From assembly GCA_024275165.1 (NCBI GenBank), contig JAJRZQ010000037.1, positions 62,001 through 126,000 on the forward strand: 64,000 bases of DNA. The letters are read 5' to 3'. A model generated the notes under the pieces. The model worked only from the letters and a program-made list of their open reading frames with translations, was not told the DNA's origin and ran no database searches. The position numbers were made by a program, and so were the translations under genes. Below, piece by piece: positions 41,508-58,162 of this stretch. How positions within the stretch are numbered: position 1 is the first letter of the stretch; each line of letters opens with the position of its first letter. The DNA is from a bacterium. Its GTDB lineage: Bacteria > SAR324 > XYD2-FULL-50-16.

Positions 41508-42671
41508 TTATGAAGTTTTTTTAAAGAGCCAGTTTTTAGTAAAGAACCGACCGAACGACAATAAAACTAGGTCTAACACAAATAGAAAACTGGCTAAGAG
41601 GGCAACATCCTTTTTAAAGGTTGGGATCTGGTCAAATTTATAAAGCAATCTTCCTAAAGGGCCTTGATTTTTAGACGCCCCTAGGGGAATGGGGTGGCTA
41701 AACAAAGAAATTCGTTTCAAAAAGAAGTTCCGATCCTCTCCTTCGATCATGGCATCATTGATGAAATTAATTTGAAATTGGTAATGTCCATCTTCATCAG
41801 CGGTAAAATCAATGTATTCTTCATCCCCTTTTTCTGAAGTGGAAAAGTAATTTCCGTAAGCAAGCCTCGCTGTATTCAAATTTAAAATATTCACTTTAAT
41901 TTTGGCAAATTCGCCACCGGCAGCGGTTCCACGACCTTTATATCGCAACTGGTATTGCCCCTTGGATAAAAAGTAGGAAAAAGCAATATACCCATCAGAA
42001 AGCATTTTTAATTCATTAAATTCCCATTCATAATATCGGTTGGAAACATACTCATTGTGAGGCACATCCCCTTGAGGGAAGCAGGATGAGGCCCCAGACA
42101 CCCTGAAAATGGTGAGTTCCTGGTCTGCCCTTCCTTTCCTCCACCGGAACTTGAAGTTGCTTTCAATTTTACCCCAATAAAAGGGCTCAGCGATCAAGGA
42201 TACAATATGGGTAACGGACTCTTCTACAACATCAGCGTTGCCAAATTGGGATAAGCGAGGGCCGGTCGGCAACACAATCGCTACCGAGCTAGCGGGGCTA
42301 ATCCCCTCTTGATTAGGGAAGCAGCGTGCAAGGGTTTCAATAGGCTGAATTTGATAGGGTTTTTGCAATACCTTCAAATCGCAGGCGGAAGGCCTCAACT
42401 CCGTAGGAAGAATGACCGACTCAATTTGCTCGGACTGGTTAATTTTTGTAAAGAGCGCGTGGAAGGGGTATTTGGTCGGATGGATTTGCGCGTCGCGGTT
42501 GAGCCCCTCAATTGACGCACCACATTCTCCCAGAATAAGATTATAATCCCTGCCCGTTATTACAGCGTTGCGGATGGACAATACGCGATAAACTACGAGA
42601 AATAAAAGAAGAATAAATATAAATAAAAGCAGCCGCTGGTGTTTTTCTAGCTTTAAAGAGAGGTTTTTCAT
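41508..42671 (-). CDS. Membrane-anchored CBM60-like protein, paralogue A
   Basis: 387 aa. N-terminal membrane helix (LLLFIFILLLFLVVYRVLSI), a large extracytoplasmic part, and a C-terminal helix (VALLASFLFVLDLVLLSF). Conserved with paralogue B (60034-61188): CFPxQEGISPxSS, RVSGASxCFPQG, and a beta-sandwich ending FINDAMIxGxDRN, which resembles the Ca-dependent xylan-binding CBM60/36 fold (ND...DRN). Two helices and the domain order suggest a periplasmic glycan-binding protein. The function is unknown; it flanks the glycan locus and may act in polymer export or modification. Confidence 0.7.
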   Translation of the reverse strand: MKNLSLKLEKHQRLLLFIFILLLFLVVYRVLSIRNAVITGRDYNLILGECGASIEGLNRDAQIHPTKYPFHALFTKINQSEQIESVILPTELRPSACDLKVLQKPYQIQPIETLARCFPNQEGISPASSVAIVLPTGPRLSQFGNADVVEESVTHIVSLIAEPFYWGKIESNFKFRWRKGRADQELTIFRVSGASSCFPQGDVPHNEYVSNRYYEWEFNELKMLSDGYIAFSYFLSKGQYQLRYKGRGTAAGGEFAKIKVNILNLNTARLAYGNYFSTSEKGDEEYIDFTADEDGHYQFQINFINDAMIEGEDRNFFLKRISLFSHPIPLGASKNQGPLGRLLYKFDQIPTFKKDVALLASFLFVLDLVLLSFGRFFTKNWLFKKTS

Positions 42672-43159: not shown

Positions 43160-44110
43160 ATGAGGGTCTCTGATTATATTTTTCAGTACTTAGCTGATTA
43201 TGGCGTTAAACATGTTTTTTTGGTTACTGGTGGCGGAGCAATGCACCTCAACGACGCCTTAAAAAAAGAAAAACGCATCACCTATATTACCAATCACCAT
43301 GAACAAGGCTGTGCCATCGCCGCGGAAGGCTATGCGAGGACAAACAACCGCTTGGCTGTAGTTAATGTCACCTCAGGGCCGGGGGGAACCAATGCCCTTA
43401 CTGGCGTTTTGGGCCAATGGCTTGATTCGGTACCGGTCTTGTACCTCTCCGGCCAGGTTAAGTTTGAAACGACTTTAGCCTCTGTTCCCGGTAGCGGGCT
43501 ACGCCAACTAGGGGATCAAGAGATCAATATTGTAGATATCGTTGCCCCCATTACCAAATACGCCAAACTGGTCACTGACTCCAATCACATTAAAATCGAG
43601 TTAGAAAAAGCCATTCATATCGCCACTTCAGGGAGGCCCGGCCCCGTATGGCTTGATATCCCCCTTAATGTGCAAGGCGCTCCCATCGATGTGGGCAGCC
43701 TCCCTAGTGAAGCCCTTCCCGACCTCACTCCCTCGCCTGACCCCCACCAACTTGAGGCAAAAACCAAACAAGCCGGATCTGACCTGCAAGCGGCGAAGCG
43801 GCCTTTGATTGTCGCTGGCCATGGCATCACCATCGCCGGGGCCAAAAAAGACTTTTTACAGTTGATTGATCAACTTCAAATTCCTGTGGTGACGACCTTT
43901 AACGGGTACGACCTCCTCGATACCCACTCAGACCAATTTATCGGCAGAATTGGCACCCTCGGGAGTCGGGCCGGGAACTTTGCCTTGCAAAATGCGGATC
44001 TCGTGATTTTTATTGGCACCAGAAATAATATCCGTCAGGTTAGCTACAATTGGGGCACCTTTGCAAAAAACGCCAAAAAATCATCGTCGATATTGACGCG
44101 GCAGAGCTGA
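43160..44110 (+). CDS. ThDP-dependent acetolactate-synthase-like enzyme, N-terminal part (frame broken)
   Basis: N-terminal ~306 residues of a ThDP enzyme. VKHVFLVTGGGAMHLND and ITNHHEQGCAIAAEGYA (the catalytic Glu) mark the pyrimidine-binding domain; the central domain follows. The frame then leaves the homologous course after FAKNAKK and stops at 44110. The next frame resumes exactly with IIVDIDAAELNKH. One extra A in the A6 run 44075-44080 would restore one ~600-aa protein. The start ATG 43160 (MRVSDYIFQYLADYG) matches the family. Relatives include acetolactate synthases and YerE, which attaches a two-carbon unit to a CDP-3,6-dideoxy-4-ketohexose. Confidence 0.75.
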   Translation: MRVSDYIFQYLADYGVKHVFLVTGGGAMHLNDALKKEKRITYITNHHEQGCAIAAEGYARTNNRLAVVNVTSGPGGTNALTGVLGQWLDSVPVLYLSGQVKFETTLASVPGSGLRQLGDQEINIVDIVAPITKYAKLVTDSNHIKIELEKAIHIATSGRPGPVWLDIPLNVQGAPIDVGSLPSEALPDLTPSPDPHQLEAKTKQAGSDLQAAKRPLIVAGHGITIAGAKKDFLQLIDQLQIPVVTTFNGYDLLDTHSDQFIGRIGTLGSRAGNFALQNADLVIFIGTRNNIRQVSYNWGTFAKNAKKSSSILTRQS

Positions 44111-44964
44111 ACAAACATCTGGTACCGGCCGACCTAGCCATCCATGCCGACGCAAAGGCGTTTTTAAACCAATTGAGCGAATCTTTACCCCAAGGTTTTG
44201 CGGTGGATCCCCAATGGGCGCAATGGTGTTTATTGCGCAAACATAAATACCCCGTGGTCTTAGAAGAATATAAACAACCCCCGGGTACCCCCTCTACAGT
44301 ACACCCCTACTGGTTCATCGACCGCTTAACGGCAAAAACGCCCAAAAATACCATCACCGTCGCTGCCAACGGTACGGCCTGTGTGGTGTTATTCCAAGCG
44401 GGGATTGTGAAAAAGCATCAGCGCACCTTCTGGAACTCCGGTTGCGCGGGGATGGGCTATGCCTTGCCGGCGAGCATCGGGGCCGCCTTGGCAAGTAATA
44501 AAGAAGTGATCTGCCTCACCGGGGATGGGAGTATTCAAATGAATTTGCAAGAGTTGCAAACCATCAAAGAGTACAAATTACCCATTAAGATCATTATCTT
44601 AAATAATCAGGGCTATCAGTCGATCATTCAGACCCAGACAACCTATTTTCAGGCCGACTACATCGGTTGCAATTCGGAATCTCGGGTCTCCTTTCCAGAC
44701 TTTTCAAAACTGGCAGACCTCTACGACCTAAACTACTTTAAAATTGACTCTCTAGAGACCATGGAACAGCAGATTGAGCAAGTGCTTGCCCAAAGCGGCG
44801 GCCTGATTTGCGAGGTGATGCTCTGTGATTATGCCTTTTCCCCAAGGTTATCTTCTGAAAAACTACCCGATGGCACCATGGTCTCAAAACCCCTAGAGGA
44901 CTTGTTTCCCTTTTTAGACCGGGAGGAACTTGCCTCCAATATGATTGTAAAGCCCGCTCCTTGA
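44050..44964 (+). CDS. ThDP-dependent acetolactate-synthase-like enzyme, C-terminal part (frame broken)
   Basis: C-terminal part of the same enzyme; homologous sequence begins at IIVDIDAAELNKH (about 44081). The ThDP-binding motif is intact: GDGSIQMNLQELQTIKEYKL, ending ILNNQGYQS. NSGCAGMGYALPASIGAALA precedes it. Only 27 bp after the A6 run does the frame match the family. Whether the break is a real mutation, a programmed slip or an assembly error is not decided by the sequence. It is followed by the HAD gene with a short gap. Confidence 0.75.
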   Translation: MGHLCKKRQKIIVDIDAAELNKHLVPADLAIHADAKAFLNQLSESLPQGFAVDPQWAQWCLLRKHKYPVVLEEYKQPPGTPSTVHPYWFIDRLTAKTPKNTITVAANGTACVVLFQAGIVKKHQRTFWNSGCAGMGYALPASIGAALASNKEVICLTGDGSIQMNLQELQTIKEYKLPIKIIILNNQGYQSIIQTQTTYFQADYIGCNSESRVSFPDFSKLADLYDLNYFKIDSLETMEQQIEQVLAQSGGLICEVMLCDYAFSPRLSSEKLPDGTMVSKPLEDLFPFLDREELASNMIVKPAP

Positions 44965-44969
44965 ATTTC

Positions 44970-45743
44970 ATGCCGCTAACTTTACAAGAAAAGAAACTTT
45001 TTGCCTTTGATTTAGATGGCACCCTTTATTTTGGAGACAAGATTGCGGAGGGGGCGAGCGAACTTGTTTCTTCGCTCCAGCAGGTGGGTCAGGTCGTTTT
45101 TTTCACCAACAATTCCTCCAAAACGAACGCAGAAATCCACGCCAAACTGGTTAAATTGGGCATTGCTTGTAATTTAGAAGAAGTTTATGCCACCTCAACA
45201 ACCACAGCAATGTATTTGCATGACGAACAGATCAATAATGTGTATGTTGTAGGCTCAAAAGGGTTCAAAGAAGAAATTTCCGCTTGCGGCGTCCAGGTAG
45301 TTGAAAATGGCAACGCAGACCACCTCGTTGTCGGCTTAGATTTTGCCTTCAATTACGAAACAATCAGCCAGGCCCTAACCGTATTGCTCAAAGGGGGTAA
45401 ATTCATTGTTTGCAATGAAGACGCCTCCTTTCCCGTAGAAAACAATCAGTCTAAACCGGGTTGCGGCGCCATGGTCGGCGCGATCGCTTATGCGGCGCAG
45501 CGAAAACCGGATTTCATAGTTGGAAAACCAAATACATATATTTTGTCAAAAATAGCAAAAACCTACGGGGTGAACCAAGAGGCGATCGTCGTTGTAGGGG
45601 ATAGCTATGAAAGTGACATCCAAATGGCCTTAAATTTTCAATGTCAGTCCATTTTGATCGGGAAATCAGACCAATGCATAGATATGAGTGTCATGCAAGT
45701 CGATGTCCTCTCAGATATTCTTCAATTTATCACAGGAAATTAA
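44970..45743 (+). CDS. HAD-IIA (NagD-like) phosphatase
   Basis: 257-aa HAD hydrolase of the NagD type. Motif I FDLDGTLYFGD (nucleophile Asp and acid/base Asp), motif II FFTNNSSKT, cap domain, motif III Lys in FIVGKPNTYIL, motif IV GDSYESDIQM. It dephosphorylates small sugar or nucleotide phosphates; the substrate is unknown. The start is ATG 44970; an in-frame TTG at 44961 would add three residues. The next gene starts immediately after its stop. Confidence 0.9.
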   Translation: MPLTLQEKKLFAFDLDGTLYFGDKIAEGASELVSSLQQVGQVVFFTNNSSKTNAEIHAKLVKLGIACNLEEVYATSTTTAMYLHDEQINNVYVVGSKGFKEEISACGVQVVENGNADHLVVGLDFAFNYETISQALTVLLKGGKFIVCNEDASFPVENNQSKPGCGAMVGAIAYAAQRKPDFIVGKPNTYILSKIAKTYGVNQEAIVVVGDSYESDIQMALNFQCQSILIGKSDQCIDMSVMQVDVLSDILQFITGN

Positions 45744-46526
45744 ATGAATATTTTAGAATACGAAATGCTCGAAAAGTTAAAAAAACTACGAGATCAGTAT
45801 GGTGTCATTGAGATCAAGGCGGAATACGAAAATGAAGGTAGCCGTGAAACAGAGCTCCAACGCCTAAAGGATATTTCAGAAAAGGCCAATCTACCTATTA
45901 TCATTAAAATCGGCGGAGTGGAAGCCATTACCGACATGTACAACGCCCTAACCCTAGGGGTCAAAGGAATCATCGCCCCCATGGCCGAGACCGCCTTTGC
46001 GGCAGGAAAATTTCTTAGCGCCATCGAGACCTTTATCCCCGAAGACAATCGACCCGATATCGAGTTTGCCATCAATATTGAAACCATTACAGCCTATCAA
46101 AATCTGGACGACATCTTAAACCATGAAAAAATTGGCCTCTTAAACAGCATCACCATTGGTCGAGTCGACTTCACCGCTTCCATGGGGAAAGATCGAGGTT
46201 TCGCAGATGGCCCAGAAATGCTACAGTACTGCACAGATATCTTTGAAAAATCAAGAGCTAAGGGTTTGAAAACAGCTTTAGGCGGGGCCATTTCTTTGGA
46301 TTCAAAGGAATTTCTAGCTAACTTGATTTCGAAAAAATTAATCGATAAGTTTGAAACTAGAAAGTTGGTGTACAGTACCCGTGCGCTAGATAACATTTCC
46401 GACGCGCTATATGCTGGAATTGAATTTGAATTATCTTGGCTGAAAAGCAAACGCAGGTATTACCATCGTTTAAAAGACGAAGATGAAAAACGCATTGGCA
46501 TGCTGGAAAAAAGAGTGAAGGGTTAA
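45744..46526 (+). CDS. HpcH/HpaI aldolase/citrate lyase family protein
   Basis: 260-aa protein of the pyruvate/PEP TIM-barrel aldolase group. YGVIEIKAEYENEG at the N-terminus, ALTLGVKGIIAPMAETAFAA, FAINIETITAYQNL (metal-ligand Glu) and ITIGRVDFTASMGKD (second acidic ligand) are visible. It could cleave or form a C-C bond with a pyruvate-like donor. ATG directly follows the HAD stop (TAAATG) with AGGA upstream. Partner reactions in the same block are unknown. Confidence 0.85.
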   Translation: MNILEYEMLEKLKKLRDQYGVIEIKAEYENEGSRETELQRLKDISEKANLPIIIKIGGVEAITDMYNALTLGVKGIIAPMAETAFAAGKFLSAIETFIPEDNRPDIEFAINIETITAYQNLDDILNHEKIGLLNSITIGRVDFTASMGKDRGFADGPEMLQYCTDIFEKSRAKGLKTALGGAISLDSKEFLANLISKKLIDKFETRKLVYSTRALDNISDALYAGIEFELSWLKSKRRYYHRLKDEDEKRIGMLEKRVKG

Positions 46527-46530
46527 CATC

Positions 46531-47667
46531 ATGAGCGCATCAAACTGTAGGCTATGCGGCGGTAAGCTTTTTACTGAGCCGATCTTTGAGTTGGAGGGCA
46601 TGCCCAAAGCGGCGCAATATTACCCTACTGAAGAAGAGTTTGCTGAGGACAAAGGGATTCGGTTAAACATCTACCAATGCGAGGACTGCGGTTTGGTTCA
46701 AGCCGATATCGAGCCAGTTGACTACTTTAAAGAGGTCATCACCGCCGCCTCCTTTTCAGAAAAAACAGTGGCTTATCGCCTAGGGCAGATGAACGAATTG
46801 GTTGAGCGATTTAACCTGAAGGGGAAAAAAGCCCTGGAGATCGGGTGCGCCAAGGGGGACATGCTCGATGTCCTACAAACCGCTGGTATGCGGGCCACTG
46901 GCATCGAAGGCTCTTTAGGATCGGTAGAGATCGGTCGAGCCAAGAACCGCAACCTTATTCACGGCTATATTGGCGAGCAAGAGCAAATTGAAGGCGGCCC
47001 CTATGACTTTTTTGTTTGTCTCAACTATTTAGAGCATGTGCCCGACCCAGGCAAGATCATCAAGATAATCTATAACAACACCACCCCAGACGCCGTTGGT
47101 TTTGTCACCGTTCCCAATTTAGGTTATTTGCTCGAGAGTAAATGCTTTTATGAGTTCTTAGCCGACCACCTTTCTTATTTCACGGAAAAAACCCTGACCC
47201 ATGCCTTTGAAAGCAACGGGTTCGATGTGTTAGACTGCGGTTTGATCAATAACGATAATGATGTCGTGGTGGTCGTGCAAAAAAAGCAGCGGTTACAACT
47301 AGCTGGTCAATACAGCGAGGTAACCGCTTTAATTGAAAAACTGCAACAGTTGACTCAAGAGTATAAAGCACAAAACAAAAAGGTTGCCGTTTGGGGCGCT
47401 GGGCACCGAACTTTGGCCCTTTTAGCCTTAGCAGATTTAACAGATATTGCTTTTGTGGTTGACTCAGCCCCTTTCAAACAGGGAAAATTTACCCCTGTGA
47501 CGCATTTAGATATCGTTCCGCCAGATCGATTAAAGCAAGGGGATATTGATTTAATTCTCGTCATGGTTCCCGGAATTTACCCTGAAGAAGTATACAAGAC
47601 CCTAGTCAAGATGGAACTGACCGCTAAGATTGCCCTACAAAAAGGCAACGATATCGAGTTTAAGTAA
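46531..47667 (+). CDS. SAM-dependent C-methyltransferase with zinc-binding N-terminus and C-terminal Rossmann-like domain
   Basis: 378 aa. N-terminal zinc motif (CRLCGG...YQCEDCGLVQ) as in Methyltransf_13 sugar C-methyltransferases, SAM-binding core with KALEIGCAKGDMLDVL and LNYLEHVPDPG, and a C-terminal nucleotide-fold domain (KKVAVWGAGHRTLALLALA). Relatives methylate carbon 3 of 4-keto-deoxysugar nucleotides. The same kind of C-terminal domain recurs at the N-terminus of the radical SAM protein at 49803. It starts four bases after the aldolase stop. Confidence 0.88.
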   Translation: MSASNCRLCGGKLFTEPIFELEGMPKAAQYYPTEEEFAEDKGIRLNIYQCEDCGLVQADIEPVDYFKEVITAASFSEKTVAYRLGQMNELVERFNLKGKKALEIGCAKGDMLDVLQTAGMRATGIEGSLGSVEIGRAKNRNLIHGYIGEQEQIEGGPYDFFVCLNYLEHVPDPGKIIKIIYNNTTPDAVGFVTVPNLGYLLESKCFYEFLADHLSYFTEKTLTHAFESNGFDVLDCGLINNDNDVVVVVQKKQRLQLAGQYSEVTALIEKLQQLTQEYKAQNKKVAVWGAGHRTLALLALADLTDIAFVVDSAPFKQGKFTPVTHLDIVPPDRLKQGDIDLILVMVPGIYPEEVYKTLVKMELTAKIALQKGNDIEFK

Positions 47668-47689
47668 TTTCACAATCGGAGCAAACATT

Positions 47690-48775
47690 ATGGAAGCAAA
47701 AGTTCAGCCACGAATTTTTTCAGCAAAAAAAATAAAAATCTAAGAAGTAGCTCCCATCAAAACCCCTTTTTCCGCGCATATTGATATTTGCAGCGTCTGT
47801 AACTTCCTATGTAGTTTCTGTTTTCAAGCAGATAAACAGGGGATGAAAGAGGCGGGGCTAAAGCGGGGTTACATGGAAATGGGTCTCTTTAAAAAGATTG
47901 TGGACGATTTATCTGAATTTGAAGACAAATTTAAGAAAATCAAAATCGGCAACCACGGTGAGCCCACCATGCACCCGCTGCTTCCCGAGATGATCGCCTA
48001 TGCGAAACAAAAAGATGTCGCAGAAATCATCGAAGTCTTTACCAATGGTTCCAAATTATCCCCAAAACTCAATTTGGCCATGGTTGAGGCTGGTTTGGAT
48101 CGGATCAATATCTCCTTAGAAGGCCTGACCGTTGAAAGGTACAAAGAAGTCGCCGGGGTTAAAGTCGATCTGGATGAGATGATCGCCAACATGACTCATC
48201 TCTATGAAAACCGGGGGGATTGTAAGATCTATATTAAAATCGTGGATCAAACGAGCGCACTAAAAAAGAAACCAGACGATGCCCCCCATGTGATGACGCC
48301 TAAAGAGCGCAAATTGTTTTTCGATACCTATGGCAACATCTGCGATGAGATCTATATCGAAAAAATTGTTCCTCAATGGGCTTTGACTCAAGAAGAAGAG
48401 CAAAATGTCGTCGCCCTTACAGGAATGTATGACCAGCCGATTGAAAGGTACAAAGAGGTCTGCCCCTTTATTTTCATGTATCTACATTTCAACTGGGATG
48501 GCAAAACCAGCCCCTGCACTTTAGATTGGCCCAGAAAAGTCACGATTGGCGATGTCTCTAAAGAGAGCGCCATAAAGATTTGGGAAGGGCAGAGCTTACG
48601 AGACCTCCAAATTGCGCAACTCGAAGGAAAACGCTGCGATGTTGACTTTTGCAACGAATGTTCTGCCCCCATGGTTTGCTGCACCGAGAATTTTGATCCC
48701 TATATGGAAAGCATTTTGAAAAAAGTCGGCCCCCCAAGCAAAGGCCCAAACCCTTGGGTAGTGGTAAAATCATAA
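47690..48775 (+). pseudogene. Radical SAM/SPASM-like protein interrupted by an in-frame TAA
   Basis: From ATG 47690 the frame reads MEAKVQPRIFSAKKIKI and meets TAA at 47741. The same frame then continues without a stop: EVAPIKTPFSAHIDICSVCN, then FLCSFC, giving the CX3CX2C cluster (Cys codons at 47798, 47810, 47819), and on to 48775. After the TAA the first ATG is 47843, beyond all three cluster Cys, so a protein started there (310 aa) could not bind the Fe-S cluster. Later Cys (e.g. CDVDFCNECSAPMVCC) suit a SPASM-like accessory cluster. The gene is broken, or the TAA is read through, or the base is wrong. Confidence 0.75.
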
Positions 48776-48792
48776 CTTAACCAATTGAAAAA

Positions 48793-49644
48793 ATGAAAAT
48801 TCTGATTACTGGTACCAACGGCTTTGTTGGTCACAACATCCAAGACTATTTTACCCCAAGGTACAATGACCTGCATTGCCCAAAGAGGGCTGAACTCGAT
48901 TTAACCGATGCGGGCGCGGTCGAAAATTATCTTTCCAGGCATCAAATTGATGTCATTATCCATTGCGGGGTGACCCTCACCTCCGTAGAGCAAAACCTGA
49001 AGATGTATTTTAATCTTGAGCGTTGTTCAAAGTTTTTTGGCAAGATGATTTTAGTTGGTTCTGGCGCTGAGTACGACCCAAAGCATTACAAACCCATGAT
49101 GACCGAGAACTATTTTGGTCAGCATATCCCTAGCGATATCTATGGGTTTTCAAAGTATGTGATAGGCAAAGATGTGGAAAAAGACCCAAAAAATGTATTC
49201 AACCTCCGGGTTTTTGGAATCTACGGGAAATATGAAGATTATGGCCGTCGTTTCATCTCAAATAATATTTGTAGAGTTTTAGCCGGAAAAGACATTTCCA
49301 TGAATCGCAATATGAAGTTTGATTATCTCTATGTTGATGATTTCTGTAGAATTTTAGATATCTTTATCCAAAGCGAACCCAAACATAAAAGCTACAATGT
49401 GTGTACAGCTACACCCATTGATTTTTTAAAAATCGCCTCGATCATCAATGAAGTCGATGGCAATCAACGCCAGATCATGGTCAAGCAAGAGGGGATGAAT
49501 CCAGAATATTCTGGTGACAATTCGTTGTTGCTCAGCGAGTTTAAAGAGGTGCGCTTTACAGAGCCAAAAGCTGCGATCGCCGAATTGTACAACTGGTACA
49601 AAAATGAAAGCGGCATCGCCTTTGATGAAATGGAATTTGGCTAA
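48793..49644 (+). CDS. NAD-dependent nucleotide-sugar epimerase/dehydratase
   Basis: 283-aa extended SDR. MKILITGTNGFVGHNIQDYF carries the GxxGxxG nucleotide motif; DIYGFSKYVIGKD provides the YxxxK catalytic pair (Y-GFS-K); FGIYGKYEDYGRR follows. Likely oxidoreduction or epimerisation of a nucleotide sugar in the glycan pathway. It follows the radical SAM gene by 17 bp. Confidence 0.88.
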   Translation: MKILITGTNGFVGHNIQDYFTPRYNDLHCPKRAELDLTDAGAVENYLSRHQIDVIIHCGVTLTSVEQNLKMYFNLERCSKFFGKMILVGSGAEYDPKHYKPMMTENYFGQHIPSDIYGFSKYVIGKDVEKDPKNVFNLRVFGIYGKYEDYGRRFISNNICRVLAGKDISMNRNMKFDYLYVDDFCRILDIFIQSEPKHKSYNVCTATPIDFLKIASIINEVDGNQRQIMVKQEGMNPEYSGDNSLLLSEFKEVRFTEPKAAIAELYNWYKNESGIAFDEMEFG

Positions 49645-49802
49645 ACCATCGTCTCAACTCGGCCGGTTCATTCTCTTTGGAGGCAGGATTTGGGTCGGTT
49701 TCCTGCATAGCTCAAACCCACCTTGGACTTGATCAAAAAGCATCAAACCATAAAAAGGTATATATTTTAACATATTAGCCAGTGAAGGCTGCTAGGTAAC
49801 CT

Positions 49803-51116
49803 ATGAATGCGGTAGTTGAAGGCCTGATAAATAAAGTGGGCAATAAGCCCTTGGTAATTTGGGGCGCAAGAATGACGGGAATCGGTTTTTTACGATTCGC
49901 CAAAAAATATGAATTAAATCCCATTGGGTTTGTCGATTCGGACACTTCACTAACCGGAAGAAATATCAGTGGCCTACCGATTGGGCTGCCTAAAGAGATC
50001 CTCAGCTTAAAAAAACAGCATCAAGACTTAATCATTGTTGTCGCTGTATCGATTAAAGAAGATGAGATCATTAGCAGCCTTGCAAAAATGGGCGTCTCCG
50101 GGGCAGAAATTGTCAATTATCACGATCTGACAAAGACTTTTTTTACCATTGATATTGTCGGCAGTTGTAACCTCAAATGCCCCTCCTGCCCACAAAGTAT
50201 GACTGGCTTGGCCCCAAAGGGATTCATGTCTTTAGAGACCTATAAAAAGGTGACCGACAAGATTTTAAAAGAAGTGGATATTGCCAGCCATGTCAGTCTT
50301 TATAGCTGGGGCGAGCCTTTTTTACATTCCGAGCTGCCTGGAATTATTGAGCACACCCACTCCCTAGGGATTGCCACGGCCGTTTCGACCAATCTATCGA
50401 TTGTCTCGACCAAGCAAATCAAAGCGATCATGAAAACCGGCCCAGATTATCTAAAAATCTCGATTTCCGGTTTCTACCCCGAGGCTTATGACTCCACCCA
50501 TACTGGTGGGAATATCAATTTAGTGAAATCCAATCTATATCGGCTAAGGTATTTGATTGATAAATATAATGTTTCTGTCTTCGTTGAGGTAAATTATCAC
50601 CTCTATACCAACAACATCGGGGAAGATCTCATCCAAATCAAGAAACTCTGCAAGGATTTAGACTTTGCCCTTTCCCCCTGCTATTCTTTAGTCGCCCCTG
50701 TAGAACGCGTTGTGGACTATTGCGAGGGGAGAATAGATGAAGAGACCAAGCAACTCACCAATTTGCTTTTAGTGAGCATCGATAAAGGGTTAGAAATTGC
50801 CAAACCCTACAGTCACCTGCCTTGTCGATTTTTAACCAATCAATTAAACATCAATTGGGACCTCAGTGTGCCCCTTTGCTGCGTGGTTTTTGATCGGCAA
50901 ACCTCTTCAATCGTCGATAATTTTTTAGAGACCCCTTTAAAAAAAATCAACGAGAAAAAAATCGGTCACCCCCAATGCACCAAGTGCTTTGAGCATAACA
51001 TCCCCCACTATCAATTGGGGGTCAATCAACCAGAATGGGCCAAAGAAGCCGATCGCGTCATCAAAGAGCGACATTTGAATGATTCCGGCCTAAGGCTATC
51101 CATGGACAGGCTTTAA
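49803..51116 (+). CDS. Radical SAM/SPASM-like protein fused to an N-terminal Rossmann-like domain
   Basis: 437 aa. Residues ~1-110: nucleotide-fold domain (KPLVIWGARMTGIGFLRFA; GFVDSDTSLTGRNISGLPIG), as in sugar-modifying enzymes. Residues ~115-400: radical SAM core with IVGSCNLKCPSCPQS (CX3CX2C intact) and a C-terminal Cys set (LCCVVFD, CTKCFEH) resembling SPASM. The substrate is unknown. It is separated from the epimerase by 158 bp, which could hold a promoter (AT-rich, TATATT near 49760). Confidence 0.82.
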   Translation: MNAVVEGLINKVGNKPLVIWGARMTGIGFLRFAKKYELNPIGFVDSDTSLTGRNISGLPIGLPKEILSLKKQHQDLIIVVAVSIKEDEIISSLAKMGVSGAEIVNYHDLTKTFFTIDIVGSCNLKCPSCPQSMTGLAPKGFMSLETYKKVTDKILKEVDIASHVSLYSWGEPFLHSELPGIIEHTHSLGIATAVSTNLSIVSTKQIKAIMKTGPDYLKISISGFYPEAYDSTHTGGNINLVKSNLYRLRYLIDKYNVSVFVEVNYHLYTNNIGEDLIQIKKLCKDLDFALSPCYSLVAPVERVVDYCEGRIDEETKQLTNLLLVSIDKGLEIAKPYSHLPCRFLTNQLNINWDLSVPLCCVVFDRQTSSIVDNFLETPLKKINEKKIGHPQCTKCFEHNIPHYQLGVNQPEWAKEADRVIKERHLNDSGLRLSMDRL

Positions 51117-51125
51117 AGGGTAGAG

Positions 51126-52085
51126 ATGACGGGTAAAAAAAAGATCAGCATTGTAACCCCCTGTTACAATGAAGAAGAAAACATCAAAGATGTCTACGAA
51201 GCAGTCAAGACTATCCGAGATCAATTCCCCCATTACGCCTGGGAACACCTTTTCATCGATAACGCCTCCAAAGATGGAACCGTTGCCAAGCTGAAAGAAT
51301 TGGCGGCGATCGACAAAGATGTCAAAATCATTGTCAACCTCAAGAATTTTGGGCATATTCGCTCCCATGTCCACGGCTATCTTTCGGCTACGGGGGATGC
51401 GGTCATTGCCTTCTTTTGTGACCTGCAAGACCCCCCAGAGATGATCACCAAATTTATTCACAAGTGGGAAGAAGGTTATGATGTGGTCGTTGGAGTCAAG
51501 AGTTCGAGTGATGAAAATTTTCTTATGTTTACACTAAGGAAAATATTTTATATGATTATGTATAAAATTTCAGAGACGGATTCGATTAAGAATTTCACGG
51601 GTTTTGCACTATATGACAAATCTTTTTTTGACATCTATCGTACTCTAAAAGAACCCTATCCCTACTTTCGAGGGATCGTAGCGGAGTTTGGGCAAAATCG
51701 CTTTGAAATACCTTATGTGCAGAGAACAAGAAAAAAAGGGAAATCAAAAAACAATTTTTACACCCTCTATGACTCTGCCATGTTGGGATTTGTACAACAA
51801 TCCAAAATCCCTCTTAGATTGGCCAGTTTTATTGGCTTTGGTTCCGCTGTTCTGAGTTTTTTGTTTGCCATAGGGTACCTAGTGTATAAATTACTCTTCT
51901 GGGACAGTGTTCTGGTAGGCATGGCACCTTTGGGAATTGGCCTGTTTTTTTTCGGAGCCGTTCAATTATTTTTCATCGGCATTATTGGCGAGTATGTTGG
52001 CACGATTTTAACGGAAATTAAAAATCGACCCTTAGTGATAGAAAAGGAACGAATCAATTTTGAGGGCAACGACTCAATCAAATAG
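51126..52085 (+). CDS. GT2 glycosyltransferase with two C-terminal membrane helices (GtrB/DPM1-like)
   Basis: 319 aa. N-terminal GT2 fold: ISIVTPCYNEEENIKDVYEA, metal site CDLQDPPEMI, then YDVVVGVKSSSDENF. Two membrane helices near the C-terminus (ASFIGFGSAVLSFLFAIGYL; LGIGLFFFGAVQLFFIGIIG). Such enzymes make polyprenyl-phosphate sugars for membrane glycosylation. A GtrA-type flippase is encoded nearby at 54.4 kb. AAAGGG before ATG supports the start. Confidence 0.92.
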   Translation: MTGKKKISIVTPCYNEEENIKDVYEAVKTIRDQFPHYAWEHLFIDNASKDGTVAKLKELAAIDKDVKIIVNLKNFGHIRSHVHGYLSATGDAVIAFFCDLQDPPEMITKFIHKWEEGYDVVVGVKSSSDENFLMFTLRKIFYMIMYKISETDSIKNFTGFALYDKSFFDIYRTLKEPYPYFRGIVAEFGQNRFEIPYVQRTRKKGKSKNNFYTLYDSAMLGFVQQSKIPLRLASFIGFGSAVLSFLFAIGYLVYKLLFWDSVLVGMAPLGIGLFFFGAVQLFFIGIIGEYVGTILTEIKNRPLVIEKERINFEGNDSIK

Positions 52086-52094
52086 GAGAAATAC

Positions 52095-53762
52095 ATGGAA
52101 CGCATTTTGTTTATTGTACCCCCTTGCGTCCGCTTTAAAGATTTTAAAAATCCAAGCTACAATGTCAAAACCATTAAAAAAACAGATGGCGTTTATGGCA
52201 ATGTGGTGACCGATATGCCTTTGGGGGCCATGTCTTTAAGCTCCTATGTAAAAAAATATTTCGGCAAGGTTGAAACAAAACTCATTGATTTTACAACAGT
52301 TCTAAATAAAGTTCCTGCCTTTCCAGCTAAGTCCTTTCGAGAATTTTTCGATGAGTTTTTGGCACAAAATGAATATCGAAATTTTAATCCGACAATCATT
52401 GCCCTATCGGCCAACTTTACTCCCTCTTATCCAAGTGTTATCGATTTAGCGGAGTCGAGCACGGAAGTCTTTCCCGACGCGCTTCTAATTGCAGGAGGCG
52501 CCTTACCCCAAACCAACTATAAGTCGATCCTATCAGACAGTCCGCATATCGATGCGATCTGTTATGGCGAGGGGGAAAAACCTCTTTTAGAGTTATTGCA
52601 GGAGAAAGATCAACTAACATACTTGGCCGAAAGCAACTCTTGGATTACCCATAAAAAAATGGATCAAGGTTGTTTTACCCATAACTTCATCGAAGATTTA
52701 GATGAAATTCCCTTTTATGATTACGATATGTGCGAAGTCGAGGATTATTCCATTAATCCCGCGATCACCGCTTACGCAGCCGTTGGCACTCATCAAGCGA
52801 ACTTTCATATTATGACTTCTCGGGGCTGCCCCTTAAAATGTACCTTTTGTGCCTCTCATAATGTACACGGTCGAGAAATGCGCTATTTCAGCGTAGATCG
52901 AGTCAAGAAGGATTTTAGACGGTTAAAAGAGAAATTTGGCGCGGAAATCTTTGTGTTTCAAGATGATCACCTCATGTCTGACCCTAAAAGGGCTAAAGAG
53001 ATTATTCAATATGTTGGGGATTTAGGCCTAAAAGCGGTATTCCAAAACGGATTAGCCCTCTATGCCCTCAAACGCGATGTGCTTGAAGTCATCCGCGGGA
53101 TTGGGGTTGACCAATTAACTCTGCCAGTGGAATCAGGCAGTGATCGGGTCTTAAAAAAGCTCATGAAAAAGCCCTTGAATACTAAGATCATTGAAAGGGT
53201 GGTGAAAGATTGCCGAGAACTAGGCATTTATACCAACCTCAATATCTTAATTGGTATGCCCGGGGAAACGAAAGAAGACATTGAAGAGGCCATTGCTTTT
53301 TTTAAGAAAATCGCCCCTAATTGGTTTATTATCTTATTTGCTACCCCTTTGGCGGGAACCGAAATGTTGGAAGTCTGTATCGAAAACGACTATCTAATCG
53401 GCAGCTATATGGATACGGACTTTAAAAAAGCGATTGTAGAAACGGGCGATTTCTCGGCAGAATACATTGAAACCAAGGCCTATACCATGAACTTGGAACT
53501 CAACTTTGTAGAGAATGCCGATTTTCGCTTAGGAGAATACAAAAAAGCCTTAATCGGTTTTGAAAATGCCATTCGAGCCAAAAGTGATCATGCTATTGCC
53601 CATTATTACACTGGTCGAGCCTACGAAAAGTTAGGTGACTACAATAAGGCTTCAAAGCACTTACAATCGGCTAAAGAAATCTTTGAAACTCAGTCTTTTT
53701 GGGGTAACTTTGCTAAAATATTCAACATCCATGATTTTAAATTGGCAGAAGCGGTCAATTAA
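52095..53762 (+). CDS. B12-binding-type radical SAM protein with C-terminal TPR repeats
   Basis: 555 aa. Residues ~1-170: B12-binding-like Rossmann domain (IIALSANFTPSYPSVIDLAE; ICYGEGEKPLLELL); the DxHxxG motif is not seen, so cobalamin may not bind. Residues ~220-440: radical SAM core with SRGCPLKCTFCASHN (CX3CX2C), HLMSDPKRAKEI and LNILIGMPGETKEDIEEA. Residues ~475-550: two TPR repeats (YKKALIGFENAIRAKSDHAI). It may perform methylation or bond rearrangement on a glycan precursor. Strong ribosome site TAGGAGAAA. The TPR tail is unusual for the group. Confidence 0.87.
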   Translation: MERILFIVPPCVRFKDFKNPSYNVKTIKKTDGVYGNVVTDMPLGAMSLSSYVKKYFGKVETKLIDFTTVLNKVPAFPAKSFREFFDEFLAQNEYRNFNPTIIALSANFTPSYPSVIDLAESSTEVFPDALLIAGGALPQTNYKSILSDSPHIDAICYGEGEKPLLELLQEKDQLTYLAESNSWITHKKMDQGCFTHNFIEDLDEIPFYDYDMCEVEDYSINPAITAYAAVGTHQANFHIMTSRGCPLKCTFCASHNVHGREMRYFSVDRVKKDFRRLKEKFGAEIFVFQDDHLMSDPKRAKEIIQYVGDLGLKAVFQNGLALYALKRDVLEVIRGIGVDQLTLPVESGSDRVLKKLMKKPLNTKIIERVVKDCRELGIYTNLNILIGMPGETKEDIEEAIAFFKKIAPNWFIILFATPLAGTEMLEVCIENDYLIGSYMDTDFKKAIVETGDFSAEYIETKAYTMNLELNFVENADFRLGEYKKALIGFENAIRAKSDHAIAHYYTGRAYEKLGDYNKASKHLQSAKEIFETQSFWGNFAKIFNIHDFKLAEAVN

Positions 53763-53801
53763 TCATTTTTGCTACCGCAATTGAATTTGCCCCCCTCAAA
53801 A

Positions 53802-54296
53802 ATGAAACTATCCGAAGCGGTAAAAGCCCTAGATGATGCGGTACCTAACCCTAACCTAGGGCTTCCTGATGAGATTTTTTATTACATTAGTAAGACCACC
53901 CCCCTGATCAATGTTGATTTACTCATCAAGGATGAATTAGGGCGCACTCTCCTTACCTGGAGAGACGATCTCTTTGCGGGGAAGGGCTGGCATGTGCCTG
54001 GAGGGATTATCCGGTTTAAAGAAACCTTTGAAGATCGGATTCGGCAGGTCGCCTTATCAGAAATCGGGACGGAAGTTGAATATGATCTGACCCCCCTGGC
54101 GGTCAATCAGATCATTTGCCCGGATAAAGAATATCGGGCGCATTTTATTTCAATACTCTACGGCTGCAAACTACCATCGAGTTTTGTACCTGATAATAAA
54201 AACCTCACCCCAAGCGATGCAGGCTATATTCGTTGGAACCAAGGCAAACCGGATAATTTACTGAAATACCATGAGATCTATACTCAGTTTTTCTAA
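53802..54296 (+). CDS. Nudix hydrolase of the GDP-mannose mannosyl hydrolase type
   Basis: 164 aa. The Nudix box is atypical: GGIIRFKETFEDRIRQVALS, then EIG, where the normal REUXEEXGU has lost a Glu, as in GDP-mannose mannosyl hydrolases (Gmm/WcaH). INVDLLIKDELGRTLLTWRD precedes it. Such enzymes hydrolyse GDP-sugars with inversion rather than pyrophosphate cleavage, and often accompany O-antigen genes. The start is ATG 53802; earlier in-frame TTG codons (53769, 53781) are less likely. It is the last gene of the plus-strand block, followed by a hairpin terminator. Confidence 0.8.
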   Translation: MKLSEAVKALDDAVPNPNLGLPDEIFYYISKTTPLINVDLLIKDELGRTLLTWRDDLFAGKGWHVPGGIIRFKETFEDRIRQVALSEIGTEVEYDLTPLAVNQIICPDKEYRAHFISILYGCKLPSSFVPDNKNLTPSDAGYIRWNQGKPDNLLKYHEIYTQFF

Positions 54297-54430: not shown

Positions 54431-54841
54431 TCAACTTTCTTTAGGTAGGACTTGAAAAACCAAGGTCTTTTGTAAAAAATAGGCTGTTACCGCCATAGGT
54501 AAGAGCAAGATAAACCCGCTGACTAAAGGTTTGACCTCAACCTGTTCAAAGGCCCAAATCCCAGCCATATTGAGCAAATAGGTAATCAGGTACACCGATG
54601 TAAAACGAAAAATCAAGCCCCATTTATTGCGTTTAAAAACCAGCCTGCCCGTCGTATTAAAGTTGAAGATGACCCCAGCGATGGTAGCCAAAAAACCGGC
54701 TAAGGTATAATGCAGCCCGATGAGGAGAAAGAGAGCAAAGATTCCATAGCCAAACAGGGTGTTTAAGCCTCCAACCAGCAAAAACCGGATGAAACGAATG
54801 GATAAACCATACTGAATCAGACTGATCAAACCCTTTGGCAT
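54431..54841 (-). CDS. GtrA-family flippase-like membrane protein
   Basis: 136 aa, four membrane helices: FIRFLLVGGLNTLFGYGIFA, then LAGFLATIAGVIFNFNTTGR, with NFNTTGRLVFKR as the family landmark, and two further helices. GtrA proteins are thought to flip polyprenyl-phosphate sugars across the membrane. I chose ATG 54841 because AGGAGG stands five bases upstream; ATG 54880 has no ribosome site. It pairs functionally with the GT2 at 51126, though on the opposite strand. Confidence 0.88.
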   Translation of the reverse strand: MPKGLISLIQYGLSIRFIRFLLVGGLNTLFGYGIFALFLLIGLHYTLAGFLATIAGVIFNFNTTGRLVFKRNKWGLIFRFTSVYLITYLLNMAGIWAFEQVEVKPLVSGFILLLPMAVTAYFLQKTLVFQVLPKES

Positions 54842-55002
54842 GGGGCCCTCCTGAGCTTTTTCTAAGGGGGGAGTCGTCATGCTTTGAAGCTTAAGAGAAG
54901 GGATCGCTCACCCTTTAGGAAGAACAACTGCGCTATTTTTTTATTCATAATTTAAGTTTGTATAAAAGAGTTTTAAAACAGGGTACCCGCAATGCCTGAC
55001 GG

Positions 55003-56307
55003 CTAAGCAAAGAACTCCTTGAGCTTAGCGGCTACAAAATCGAGCATCTCTTCTGTAAGTCCAGGGTAAATCCCCAACCAAAAAGCTTGATTCATCACCA
55101 AATCGGTATTTTTTAAATCCCCGACTTGGCGATAGTTCTGACCCGTAAAATAGGGCTGTCGGATCAAGTTCCCAGCAAAAATGAGGCGAGACCCGACCTT
55201 ATGACTATCGAGAAATTTTAAGAGGTCTACTCTTTTTTTATTGGATTCAGGGCGCAGACATATGGGAAAGCCAAACCAAGAAGGATCAGATTTCGGTGTG
55301 GCCTCAGGAAGGATAAAAAAGGCTTCTAAACCAGCTAACTTATTTTTCAGATATTGAAAATTATGTTTCCTCAAAGCGGTAAACCCCTCTAGGCGATCCA
55401 TTTGGGCCAAGGCGCAAGCGGCCTGCATATCACTGATCTTTAAATTAAAGCCCATATGAGAATAGGTGTATTTGTGATCATAGCCCTGGGGCAAGTTACC
55501 GAGCTGTTGATCAAAGCGTTTATTGCAGGTGTTGTCCTTTCCTGGGGGGCAATAGCAATCCCGACCCCAATCTCGAAAGGATTCTACGATGTTTTTTAAT
55601 TTCCGGTCTTGGGTAAATACAGCACCGCCTTCACCCATGGTGATATGGTGTGCCGGATAAAAACTTAAAGTTGCGATGTCTCCAAAGGTGCCTACGGCTT
55701 GACCGCCATAGGTAGTCCCTAAGGCATCGCAGCAGTCTTCAATCAGCCAGAGATGATGCTTTTTTGCAAAGGCCACTACGGCATCGAGATTAAAGCAATT
55801 GCCCAGCGTATGGGCGACCATGATCGCTTTGGTTTTATCTGATAAGGCGGCCTCTAACTGGGTCACATCCATGTTATAGGTACCCAATTCGACATCAATA
55901 AAGACTGGCACCATCCCCTGCTGCAAGAGTGGATTAACCGTGGTGGGGAACCCCGCGGCCACCGTAATCACTTCGTCCCCAGGCTTGAGGGCGCGCCCTT
56001 TTAATTGGGGGGAAGTCAAGGCAGAAAGGGCCAAGAGGTTTGCCGAAGAACCGGAGTTGGTGGTCAAGACATATTTCACCCCCAAGAATTCAGCTAATTT
56101 TTTTTCGAAGGCGTCGTTGAAGCGTCCCGTTGTCAACCATCCATCCAAAGAGGCCTCAACCATGTTTTTTAATTCGGTTGCCCCTAAAACTTTTCCCGAA
56201 GGAGGAACGAGGCTACTGCCCGGCTCAAAGATTTTGCTCTGATAAACTTGGTCAGCGTATTGTTCTACGAGTTTAGCAATCTCTTGGCGAATCTGTTCTG
56301 CGTTCAT
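55003..56307 (-). CDS. rfbH: CDP-4-keto-6-deoxyglucose 3-dehydrase
   Basis: 434-aa member of the DegT/DnrJ/EryC1 fold that uses PMP rather than an internal aldimine. The usual PLP-lysine is replaced by His: [17 protein letters not shown]. The [2Fe-2S]-binding Cys are present ([16 protein letters not shown]). It removes the 3-hydroxyl from CDP-4-keto-6-deoxyglucose, giving a 3,6-dideoxy intermediate that needs a reductase (E3) not encoded in the window. The start overlaps the rfbG stop by ATGA. Third gene of rfbF-rfbG-rfbH. Confidence 0.95.
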
Positions 56308-57398
56308 GAATATTCAGGGGAATTAGGACAATTTTTTTGATATTGTTGGAGTTGTTCTAAGCATAGGGCATGCATATCCTGCCCGACTTGATAGGCTTTG
56401 TACCAGGTTGTGATTTTTTCTAAGGCTTCGGCAAGGCTCCAGCGGGGCTGCCATTGCAACCGATTGCGAGCCTTGGAAATATCTAGTTTGAGATAATGAG
56501 CCTCATGGGGTTGCTCCCCCTGCTCCAACTCCCAGCTAGCCCCTTCCCCCCAGAGCTTGGTCATTTCTTCCACAATCCAGCCAACGGATTTGGCATCCTC
56601 ATCAAAGGGGCCAAAGTTCCAACCCTCCGCAAAGTCAACCCCCTCTTTGTAGAGCCGTTCTGCCAACTGCAAATATCCACCGAGAGGTTCTAAAACATGC
56701 TGCCAAGGGCGAATCGCCTTCGGGTTACGAATCCGTACCGCTTTGCCCGAGAGGATCGAGCGCATAAAATCGGGGATGAGCCGATCTGTAGCCCAGTCAC
56801 CCCCGCCAATCACATTCCCTGCTCGGCCAGAGGCCAAGGCCACGCCATGATGCCCGTAGTTTGCGGGGTTAAAAAAGGAGTCGCGAAAGGCGCTGGTGAT
56901 CAATTCAGAGCAGCCTTTAGAATTGCTATAAGGGTCATAGCCACCCATCGGGTCGTTTTCTCGGTATCCCCAATCCCACTCTTGATTTTCATAACATTTG
57001 TCGCTGGTCACATTGACCACCACTTTGACCTCGCCAACTTTCCTTAAAGATTCAAGTAGGTTGACAGTCCCCATCACATTCACCTCGTAAGTCTCCACAG
57101 GGTAATCATAGGAATAGCGTACCAAGGCTTGGGCAGCCAAGTGAAAGACAATTTCGGGCTGACAGCGGGCCACTACTGATTGCACCCAGGCTAGGTCACG
57201 GATGTCTCCAATCTCGGAACGCATCCCTTCACCGACTCTGGCGACCTCAAAGAGGTTTGGGCTAGACGGAGGGCTTAGGGCAACCCCCGTGACTTCGGCC
57301 CCCATCGATTGTAGCCATAAGGAAAGCCAACTGCCCTTAAAGCCGGTATGTCCGGTTAAGAGGACTTTTTTCCCCCTCCAAAAACCTGGAATTACCAT
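56304..57398 (-). CDS. rfbG: CDP-glucose 4,6-dehydratase
   Basis: 364-aa extended [21 protein letters not shown] at the N-terminus is diagnostic, with the NAD motif GxxGxx[14 protein letters not shown] provides the YxxxK pair; [16 protein letters not shown] and [15 protein letters not shown] follow. It converts CDP-glucose to CDP-4-keto-6-deoxyglucose. The start is ATG 57398; it overlaps rfbF by seven bases. A TTG at 57407 is possible. Confidence 0.96.
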
Positions 57399-58162
57399 TG
57401 CTTCCAAGGAGCTTGGTTTTGCTCCCAGAGGGATTCAAGGTGTTGTTTATCGCGCAGGGTGTCCATGGGCTGCCAAAATCCGTCATGCTTAAAAACAGAC
57501 AGTTGGCCGTCCGTCGCCAAACGCTCCATGGGATTACTTTCCCAAGCGGTGTGATCACCTTCAATATAATTAAAAACTTTAGGGGACAAAACAAAAAAAC
57601 CGCCGTTGATCCAACTGTTATCCCCTTGAGGCTTCTCTTGGAAACTGGTGATTCGATGCTGATGAATCGCAATGGCGCCGAATCGTCCAGGCGGTTGTGT
57701 CGCAGTCAAGGTAGCCAGGGTGCCTTGAGATTTGTGAAAGGCCATGAGAGCGGTGATGTTCAAATCGCTGACTCCATCGCCATAGGTTAGGCAAAAAGCC
57801 TCTTCATCTTTCAAATAAGCTTGCACCCGCTTGAGGCGGCCACCAGTCAAGGTCGAATCGCCAGTATCGACTAAGGTCACCCTCCAGGGCTCGGCCGTAT
57901 TTTGGTGTACCTCAGTGGTGTTATTGGATAGATCAAAGGTCACATTGGATTGATGCAAATAGTAATTCGAGAAGTACTCTTTGACCATGTACCCCTTGTA
58001 ACCGAGGCAAATGATAAACTCATGAATGCCATGGGCGGAATAACTTTTCATGATGTGCCAGAGGATCGGCTTACCCCCAATTTCAACCATCGGTTTGGGT
58101 CGAATACTGGTTTCCTCAGCGAGCCGGGTACCGAGTCCACCTGCTAATATAACTGCTTTCAT
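57392..58162 (-). CDS. rfbF: Glucose-1-phosphate cytidylyltransferase
   Basis: 256-aa nucleotidyltransferase: [20 protein letters not shown] (nucleotide-binding signature), [29 protein letters not shown] (metal Asp), [19 protein letters not shown]. It makes CDP-glucose from CTP and glucose-1-phosphate, the entry to CDP-dideoxysugars. First gene of the minus-strand CDP-sugar unit. The upstream region once held another gene, now a remnant (58256-58471). Confidence 0.96.

Follow-up and report, generated by a model that had tools for sequence, protein, structure and literature searches.

Carboligases of the YerE-like class, which depend on thiamine diphosphate (ThDP), branch cytidine diphosphate (CDP)-4-keto-3,6-dideoxyglucose and include ErwE of erwiniose biosynthesis and MMAR_2332 of caryophyllose biosynthesis in Mycobacterium marinum (PMC12247030). 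YerE uses pyruvate as its donor; ErwE does not use pyruvate and prefers 4-hydroxy-2-oxo acids, and MMAR_2332, like ErwE, prefers hydroxylated 2-oxo acids (PMC12247030). Caryophyllose is a 3,6-dideoxy-4-C-(1,3,4,5-tetrahydroxyhexyl)-hexose (PMC5706390). M. marinum mutants of MMAR_2331, MMAR_2332 and MMAR_2333 are each without this sugar. Here we describe a locus with a YerE-like core in a bacterium of the SAR324 lineage, on a stretch of 64,000 nucleotides (assembly GCA_024275165.1, contig JAJRZQ010000037.1, positions 62,001 to 126,000 of the forward strand) that we call the window and in whose numbering all positions below are given. A first-pass annotation had pointed to a plus-strand block at 43,160-53,762 that combines a ThDP enzyme, a NagD-type HAD phosphatase, an HpcH/HpaI aldolase, a sugar C-methyltransferase, an epimerase, three radical SAM proteins (one with TPRs) and a GT2, and had suggested that it may put an unusual sugar, branched or lengthened in its carbon chain, or a non-sugar substituent on a surface glycan.

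We propose that the block encodes the biosynthesis of a C-4-branched, higher-carbon 3,6-dideoxyhexose, with the aldolase and the HAD phosphatase supplying a donor that the ThDP enzyme attaches, and we put the probability of this reading at roughly three in four. The most likely product of the aldolase is a phosphorylated 2-keto-3-deoxy acid, which would go on to serve the ThDP enzyme as its donor. Pfam searches confirmed every one of the families named above, in place and in one orientation. Judged by its sequence, the window ThDP enzyme is YerE-like and closer to JanthE than to acetolactate synthases: the two halves of its frameshifted gene are 70% and 61% identical to an intact homologue in a gammaproteobacterial metagenome-assembled genome (locus L009), for which the best PDB match is JanthE (8rph, 4.6e-124) and the next an acetolactate synthase (8.1e-86). 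The frameshift matters for whether the enzyme works in this genome; its kinship with the YerE-like enzymes is unaffected. The genes for CDP-4-keto-3,6-dideoxyglucose (RfbF, RfbG and RfbH) are linked to the ThDP gene, at 55,003-58,162.

With the aldolase as query, 84,980 species genomes were scanned once; the 80 loci that came out belong to at least 21 named phyla. Because these loci were picked by the aldolase, the company that it keeps is a result, to be read with the knowledge that the loci are not independent in descent. The ThDP enzyme is encoded in 71 of the 80 (in the stretch examined), within 3 kb of the aldolase in 64, and at least one of RfbF, RfbG and RfbH in 57. The window's own set recurs nearly complete in six loci (L008, L009, L029, L030, L031 and L087), of which L008 and L009 have intact clusters and L087 comes from a cultured strain, Azonexus fungiphilus DSM 23841, and L009 keeps the window order, ThDP-HAD-aldolase-C-methyltransferase-rSAM1-epimerase-rSAM2, with RfbF/G/H preceding the set and a GT2 72% identical to the window's following it. 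Since it recurs in unrelated phyla, the gene set is not a chance grouping, and the pathway is real and horizontally spread; the objection anticipated in the first-pass annotation, that the genes might not travel together, thus fails. The aldolase was present in about 2% of sampled whole genomes (8/399 Pseudomonadota, 8/396 Bacteroidota and 4/199 Mycobacterium genomes). Several loci (L042, L056, L064, L065 and L074) carry a tandem pair of aldolase copies. The Ilyobacter homologue lies in an unrelated context, with an aconitase and a hydroxyacid dehydrogenase.

When all open reading frames of the 80 loci were clustered, two alternative kinds of partner emerged beside the aldolase, counted here within 4.5 kb of it. 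The first is a dehydroquinate (DHQ)-synthase-like protein (PF01761/PF24621, NCBIfam TIGR04425), present in 37 loci and accompanied in 36 by a short-chain dehydrogenase/reductase (SDR); the second is the HAD phosphatase, present in 31 loci. The DHQ-synthase-like pair and the HAD never occur together (0/80; Fisher 1.1e-12, descent not corrected). Twelve loci had neither partner at first count, although three of them (L018, L026 and L039) hold further HADs in the same slot, bringing the HAD total to 34; other HAD subfamilies occupy the slot in other loci, and the HAD of L026 belongs to the KdsC family; the substrate of KdsC is a 2-keto-3-deoxy acid phosphate. The genome samples added seven loci, each with the SDR/DHQ-synthase pair and without a HAD, and one divergent locus with neither. 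On the aldolase tree there are at least 14 switches between the two partner states, some of them within sister pairs. The cluster DHQ-synthase-like protein has conserved catalytic motifs, and each of five genomes inspected from this group carries its gene in addition to a housekeeping-like AroB. Since the partners that replace each other beside the aldolase both remove phosphate, the product of the aldolase appears to be phosphorylated. Our first idea, that the DHQ-synthase-like enzyme makes a carbocycle for the branch, we now regard as less likely, because cyclisation would leave the ThDP enzyme without a keto acid to use.

In the reverse direction, a search of 399 Pseudomonadota genomes with the ThDP enzyme gave 21 YerE-like loci. 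In seven the aldolase gene shares the contig and lies no more than about 13 kb away, seven have a NeuB-family gene beside the ThDP gene, and three have DmpF-DmpG, so that genes for making a 2-keto-3-deoxy or 4-hydroxy-2-oxo acid accompany 17 of the 21. DmpF (acylating acetaldehyde dehydrogenase) and DmpG (4-hydroxy-2-oxovalerate aldolase) together yield 4-hydroxy-2-oxopentanoate, and their genes adjoin YerE-like ThDP genes in L145, L156, L158 and L052, which fits an erwiniose-type donor. In L156 the ThDP gene has a further neighbour, an ordinary HpcH aldolase. The DmpF/DmpG genes of the Novosphingobium plasmids were excluded from the donor counts, as their neighbours look catabolic. The NeuB-family proteins (L146, L147 and L151-L155), of about 500 residues in most loci and with a cupin domain in the two that were scanned, are possible phosphoenolpyruvate-dependent makers of a keto-acid donor.

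The window aldolase shows the traits of the HpcH/HpaI aldolases, namely a predicted TIM barrel and the metal-binding Glu and Asp. The model has a predicted local distance difference test score (pLDDT) of 95.5, its best fold match is HpaI-Zn-pyruvate (7et9, 2.4e-8), and the metal ligands Glu113 and Asp142, as well as Lys55 and Arg140, are invariant across 47 sequences. In the adjoining HAD the DLDGT and GDSYESD motifs are intact.

In the scheme that we favour, RfbF, RfbG and RfbH would provide CDP-4-keto-3,6-dideoxyglucose, and the HpcH-type aldolase would join pyruvate and an aldose phosphate. The HAD phosphatase would strip the phosphate from the product, a phosphorylated 2-keto-3-deoxy (4-hydroxy-2-oxo) acid. 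The YerE-like enzyme would decarboxylate this acid and add the acyl anion to the C-4 ketone, giving a tertiary alcohol with a polyhydroxyalkyl branch, and the epimerase-family protein, acting as a side-chain keto reductase, would reduce the ketone left in the branch. Tailoring of the sugar would fall to the C-methyltransferase and the radical SAM proteins, and the GtrB-type GT2 would load it on undecaprenyl phosphate and, with GtrA, pass it to a surface glycan. From what is observed, that is, the families, their linkage, the predicted aldolase fold and the interchange of modules, we infer every reaction, its order and its substrate. Known chemistry allows the same logic to be applied to caryophyllose, whose branch, written as a ketone plus CO2, would be 3,7-dideoxy-2-heptulosonate, the expected yield of pyruvate and erythrose 4-phosphate after an AroB-type phosphate elimination and one reduction. 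Three Mycobacterium loci have the order RfbF-GT2-ThDP-aldolase-SDR-DHQ-synthase-like, which would fit MMAR_2333-2332-2331 if MMAR_2331 is the aldolase, an identity taken from gene order only.

That reliance on gene order is one of several points that weigh against the proposed pathway. Four of the 21 YerE-like loci have no donor enzyme in the stretch read, and the cyanobacterial (L025 and L060) and Ilyobacter aldolase loci have no ThDP or RfbF/RfbH genes nearby. A dedicated RfbH reductase (AscD-like) was not found in the genome. The window aldolase is only about 14-17% identical to the nearest HpaI-type structures and matches no NCBIfam model, and the segment that holds the substrate arginine in HpaI falls in an alignment gap and does not align; the enzyme is a remote HpcH relative, with its substrate assignment a proposal. 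Finally, two genes of the block, those for the ThDP enzyme and for rSAM1, carry lesions, and the pathway may be inactive here.

These lesions give some weight, short of an even chance, to the explanation that the block in this genome is a decaying, recently acquired island that makes nothing. Alignments of ThDP enzyme homologues change frame at query residue 301, with residues 1-301 on one side of the split and 301-592 on the other, where one A is missing from an A-run at about 44,075-44,082; the reading frame is broken in this assembly and intact in relatives, and the rest of the genome holds no second YerE-like copy, its other ThDP enzymes being more distant (26-32%). In rSAM1, whose true start is the ATG at 47,690, a TAA stands at 47,741 where five relatives read through (..KVALEDVVP..), and the alternative start, the ATG at 47,843, would lose the Fe-S cluster motif. 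The block is probably acquired, since its G+C content is mostly 0.41-0.47 versus about 0.46-0.56 upstream and, of 52 genomes of the host phylum examined, the remaining 51 lack the aldolase. A search of 57 host relatives with the aldolase gave no close homologue (best 4.4e-5). A transposase-like stretch at 58,838-59,664, adjoining rfbF and lying in two broken frames, looks like a decayed insertion sequence, and its first half has no Pfam match. Nevertheless, all other genes are open, the motifs that were checked are intact, and both lesions are single-base changes that could be assembly errors or strain variants. Moreover, decay concerns this assembly rather than the family, and is no competitor to the pathway assignment.

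Two other explanations do compete with it, and both appear improbable. According to one, which matches the first-pass idea of assaying the aldolase with pyruvate on a CDP-ketosugar, the aldolase would add pyruvate to the ketone of the CDP-4-ketosugar, or else to its acyl branch. The ThDP enzyme, for its part, would add a plain acetyl group from pyruvate, as YerE, a pyruvate user, does. On the Novosphingobium humi plasmids (L005, 13,992-16,762) the aldolase indeed lies directly behind rfbF-rfbG, with no ThDP or RfbH gene in 32 kb. This leaves unexplained, however, both the phosphatase or DHQ-synthase-like partner found in 71 of the 80 loci and the replacement of the aldolase by NeuB and DmpF-DmpG, and the idea is probably wrong, as the evidence favours an aldolase that makes the keto-acid donor for the ThDP enzyme. 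The other, in which aldolase and HAD make a separately activated Kdo-like ulosonic sugar and an ordinary yersiniose-type branch merely shares the glycan locus, could draw on the KdsC-family HAD of L026 and on NeuB relatives typical of ulosonic acid pathways, but a CMP-sugar synthetase is no regular neighbour (a KdsB-like cluster is present in 3/80 loci), the ThDP gene stays within 3 kb of the aldolase in most loci, and the characterised ThDP relatives need exactly such acids (PMC12247030).

We return to the pathway with an aldolase-derived donor, and to its proposed tailoring enzymes. The C-methyltransferase, with a zinc-binding (PF08421), a methyltransferase (PF13489) and a C-terminal sugar domain (PF08484), has its best PDB match in D-mycarose 3-C-methyltransferase (4rv9, 1e-20). 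The N-terminal domain of rSAM2 is related to that C-terminal domain (hhalign probability 95.9%), which suggests that the two proteins may handle the same nucleotide sugar. Besides its radical SAM core, rSAM1 has a SPASM domain; its sequence relatives, BtrN and MoaA, are weak, and its nearest folds, from a model with a pLDDT of only 66.6, are BtrN and DesII. The nearest radical SAM structure in the PDB to the B12-binding protein is AprD4, and homologues of this protein, 49-57% identical, occur in L011, L012, L031 and L032. Across the 80 aldolase loci, relatives of the epimerase-family protein are present in 37, the C-methyltransferase in 12, all of HAD type (counting L026) and none of DHQ-synthase type, rSAM1 in six and rSAM2 in five. 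Relatives of the C-methyltransferase are also found in the NeuB-type loci L147, L151, L153 and L155, with varying Nudix, radical SAM and B12 radical SAM genes. Since they accompany NeuB-type loci as well, the tailoring genes belong to the sugar pathway and are not tied to the aldolase. A divergent aldolase relative (34%) adjoins a B12 radical SAM homologue (49% identical to the window's) at L113 (9,289-11,084), a stretch near which neither Rfb nor ThDP genes lie; elsewhere that genome holds a NeuB-type cluster (L151).

With regard to the glycan, the GT2 belongs with the polyprenyl-phosphate enzymes (GtrB sll0501 is its best PDB match, at 5e-45, followed by ArnC) and occurs at the window locus together with a GtrA flippase; the 80 loci include 30 with GtrA and 48 with GT2. 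The earlier idea of an unusual sugar on a surface glycan is supported in part, in its outline.

The features are listed below. The block is slightly longer than first described, an operon-like run of plus-strand genes extending over 43,160-54,296 to include a Nudix gene that, by its sequence conservation, is part of the same module. Intergenic gaps are mostly below 25 bases (one is 158), and the TAA of the HAD gene abuts the ATG of the aldolase gene.

Table 1. Genes of the block and of the adjoining minus-strand cluster, in window coordinates.
Feature	Position	Strand	Remarks
YerE-like ThDP carboligase	43160..44964	+	TPP_enzyme_N/M/C; 1-base frameshift near 44,080 splits frames 43160-44110 and 44062-44964
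HAD-IIA (NagD-type) phosphatase	44970..45743	+	Hydrolase_6 and TIGR01460, both above cut-off
Divergent HpcH/HpaI-type pyruvate aldolase	45744..46526	+	HpcH_HpaI weak, 1.7e-8
Sugar C-methyltransferase, TylCIII type	46531..47667	+	Methyltransf_13/23/14
Radical SAM/SPASM protein rSAM1	47690..48775	+	Radical_SAM and SPASM; in-frame TAA 47741-47743
SDR-type epimerase/reductase	48793..49644	+	Epimerase PF01370
Radical SAM protein rSAM2, N-terminal Rossmann-like domain	49803..51116	+	Radical_SAM (Pfam)
GT2, GtrB/ArnC type	51126..52085	+	Pfam GT2; best PDB match sll0501
B12-binding radical SAM protein, C-terminal TPRs	52095..53762	+	B12-binding, Radical_SAM and TPR (Pfam)
Nudix protein	53769..54296	+	Pfam NUDIX narrowly misses its cut-off; homologues in 8 related loci, 52-64% identical
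GtrA-type flippase	54431..54880	-	PF04138
RfbH, CDP-4-keto-6-deoxyglucose 3-dehydrase (E1)	55003..56307	-	DegT family; SFYPAHH motif, pyridoxal phosphate lysine replaced by His
RfbG, CDP-glucose 4,6-dehydratase	56304..57407	-	mostly 45-64% identical to aldolase neighbours in related loci
RfbF, glucose-1-phosphate cytidylyltransferase	57392..58162	-	NTP_transferase; 40-72% identical in related loci

The block is flanked by two minus-strand genes (41,508-42,671 and 60,034-61,188); the proteins that they encode share 52% identity, each has a predicted membrane anchor and neither has a Pfam match. Farther upstream (38,719-40,011) lies a gene for a radical SAM-looking protein with a CxxC-type motif (..ECQFCDIN..) that matches no Pfam model.

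More broadly, we lean towards the view that YerE-like clusters are modular, each with its own donor set (aldolase and HAD; aldolase, non-cyclising DHQ-synthase-like protein and SDR; a NeuB relative; or DmpF-DmpG), so that the structure of the branch could be read from the genome, and that the window type, with C-methylation and radical chemistry in addition, yields a branched sugar unlike those described so far. If this is true, a rule tying neighbouring donor genes to the side chain would make branched sugars predictable. The proposal likewise gives a specific, testable account of the source of the hydroxylated keto acids that serve as donors for erwiniose- and caryophyllose-type sugars, and suggests a new role for a DHQ-synthase-like family that so far bears just the name "putative phospholyase".

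The ThDP step has been described before, and the core varies an established route, that to erwiniose and caryophyllose. The first-pass statement that no pathway with this set has been described does not hold for the YerE-like core, which has precedent (PMC12247030), and stands for the HAD variant with C-methyltransferase and radical SAM proteins. No description of modular donor supply or of C-methyl/radical SAM tailoring was found in the literature searched, Krug et al. 2024, on YerE-like gene clusters, lying outside it, and the literature on bradyrhizose genes mentions no aldolase or radical SAM protein. In domain layout and nearest solved structures the tailoring enzymes resemble TylCIII-type C-methyltransferases and BtrN/DesII-type radical SAM sugar enzymes; we know of no characterised enzyme of these types from a ThDP/aldolase context of the window kind. 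With the class II aldolases of the HpcH/HpaI family (HpaI, YfaU and HKA) the window aldolase shares the TIM-barrel fold and the metal-ligand Glu and Asp, and differs in its low identity, the lack of an NCBIfam model and the substrate-arginine segment that cannot be aligned. The AroB-related putative sugar phosphate phospholyase TIGR04425, which in 37 loci takes the partner position beside this aldolase, is absent from the window, where a HAD is found instead. The yersiniose and erwiniose (ErwE) pathways have in common with the window a CDP-4-keto-3,6-dideoxyglucose made by RfbF/G/H, a ThDP enzyme nearest to JanthE and a reductase-like epimerase; in the yersiniose pathway, however, pyruvate is used directly, whereas the window has an aldolase and a phosphatase, a C-methyltransferase and three radical SAM proteins. 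Another close system is caryophyllose, from the lipooligosaccharide of M. marinum (MMAR_2331-2333), with the GT2-ThDP-aldolase order of the three Mycobacterium loci and a long hydroxylated acyl donor; the mycobacterial loci have SDR and DHQ-synthase-like genes and no radical SAM module, whereas the window has a HAD in their place.

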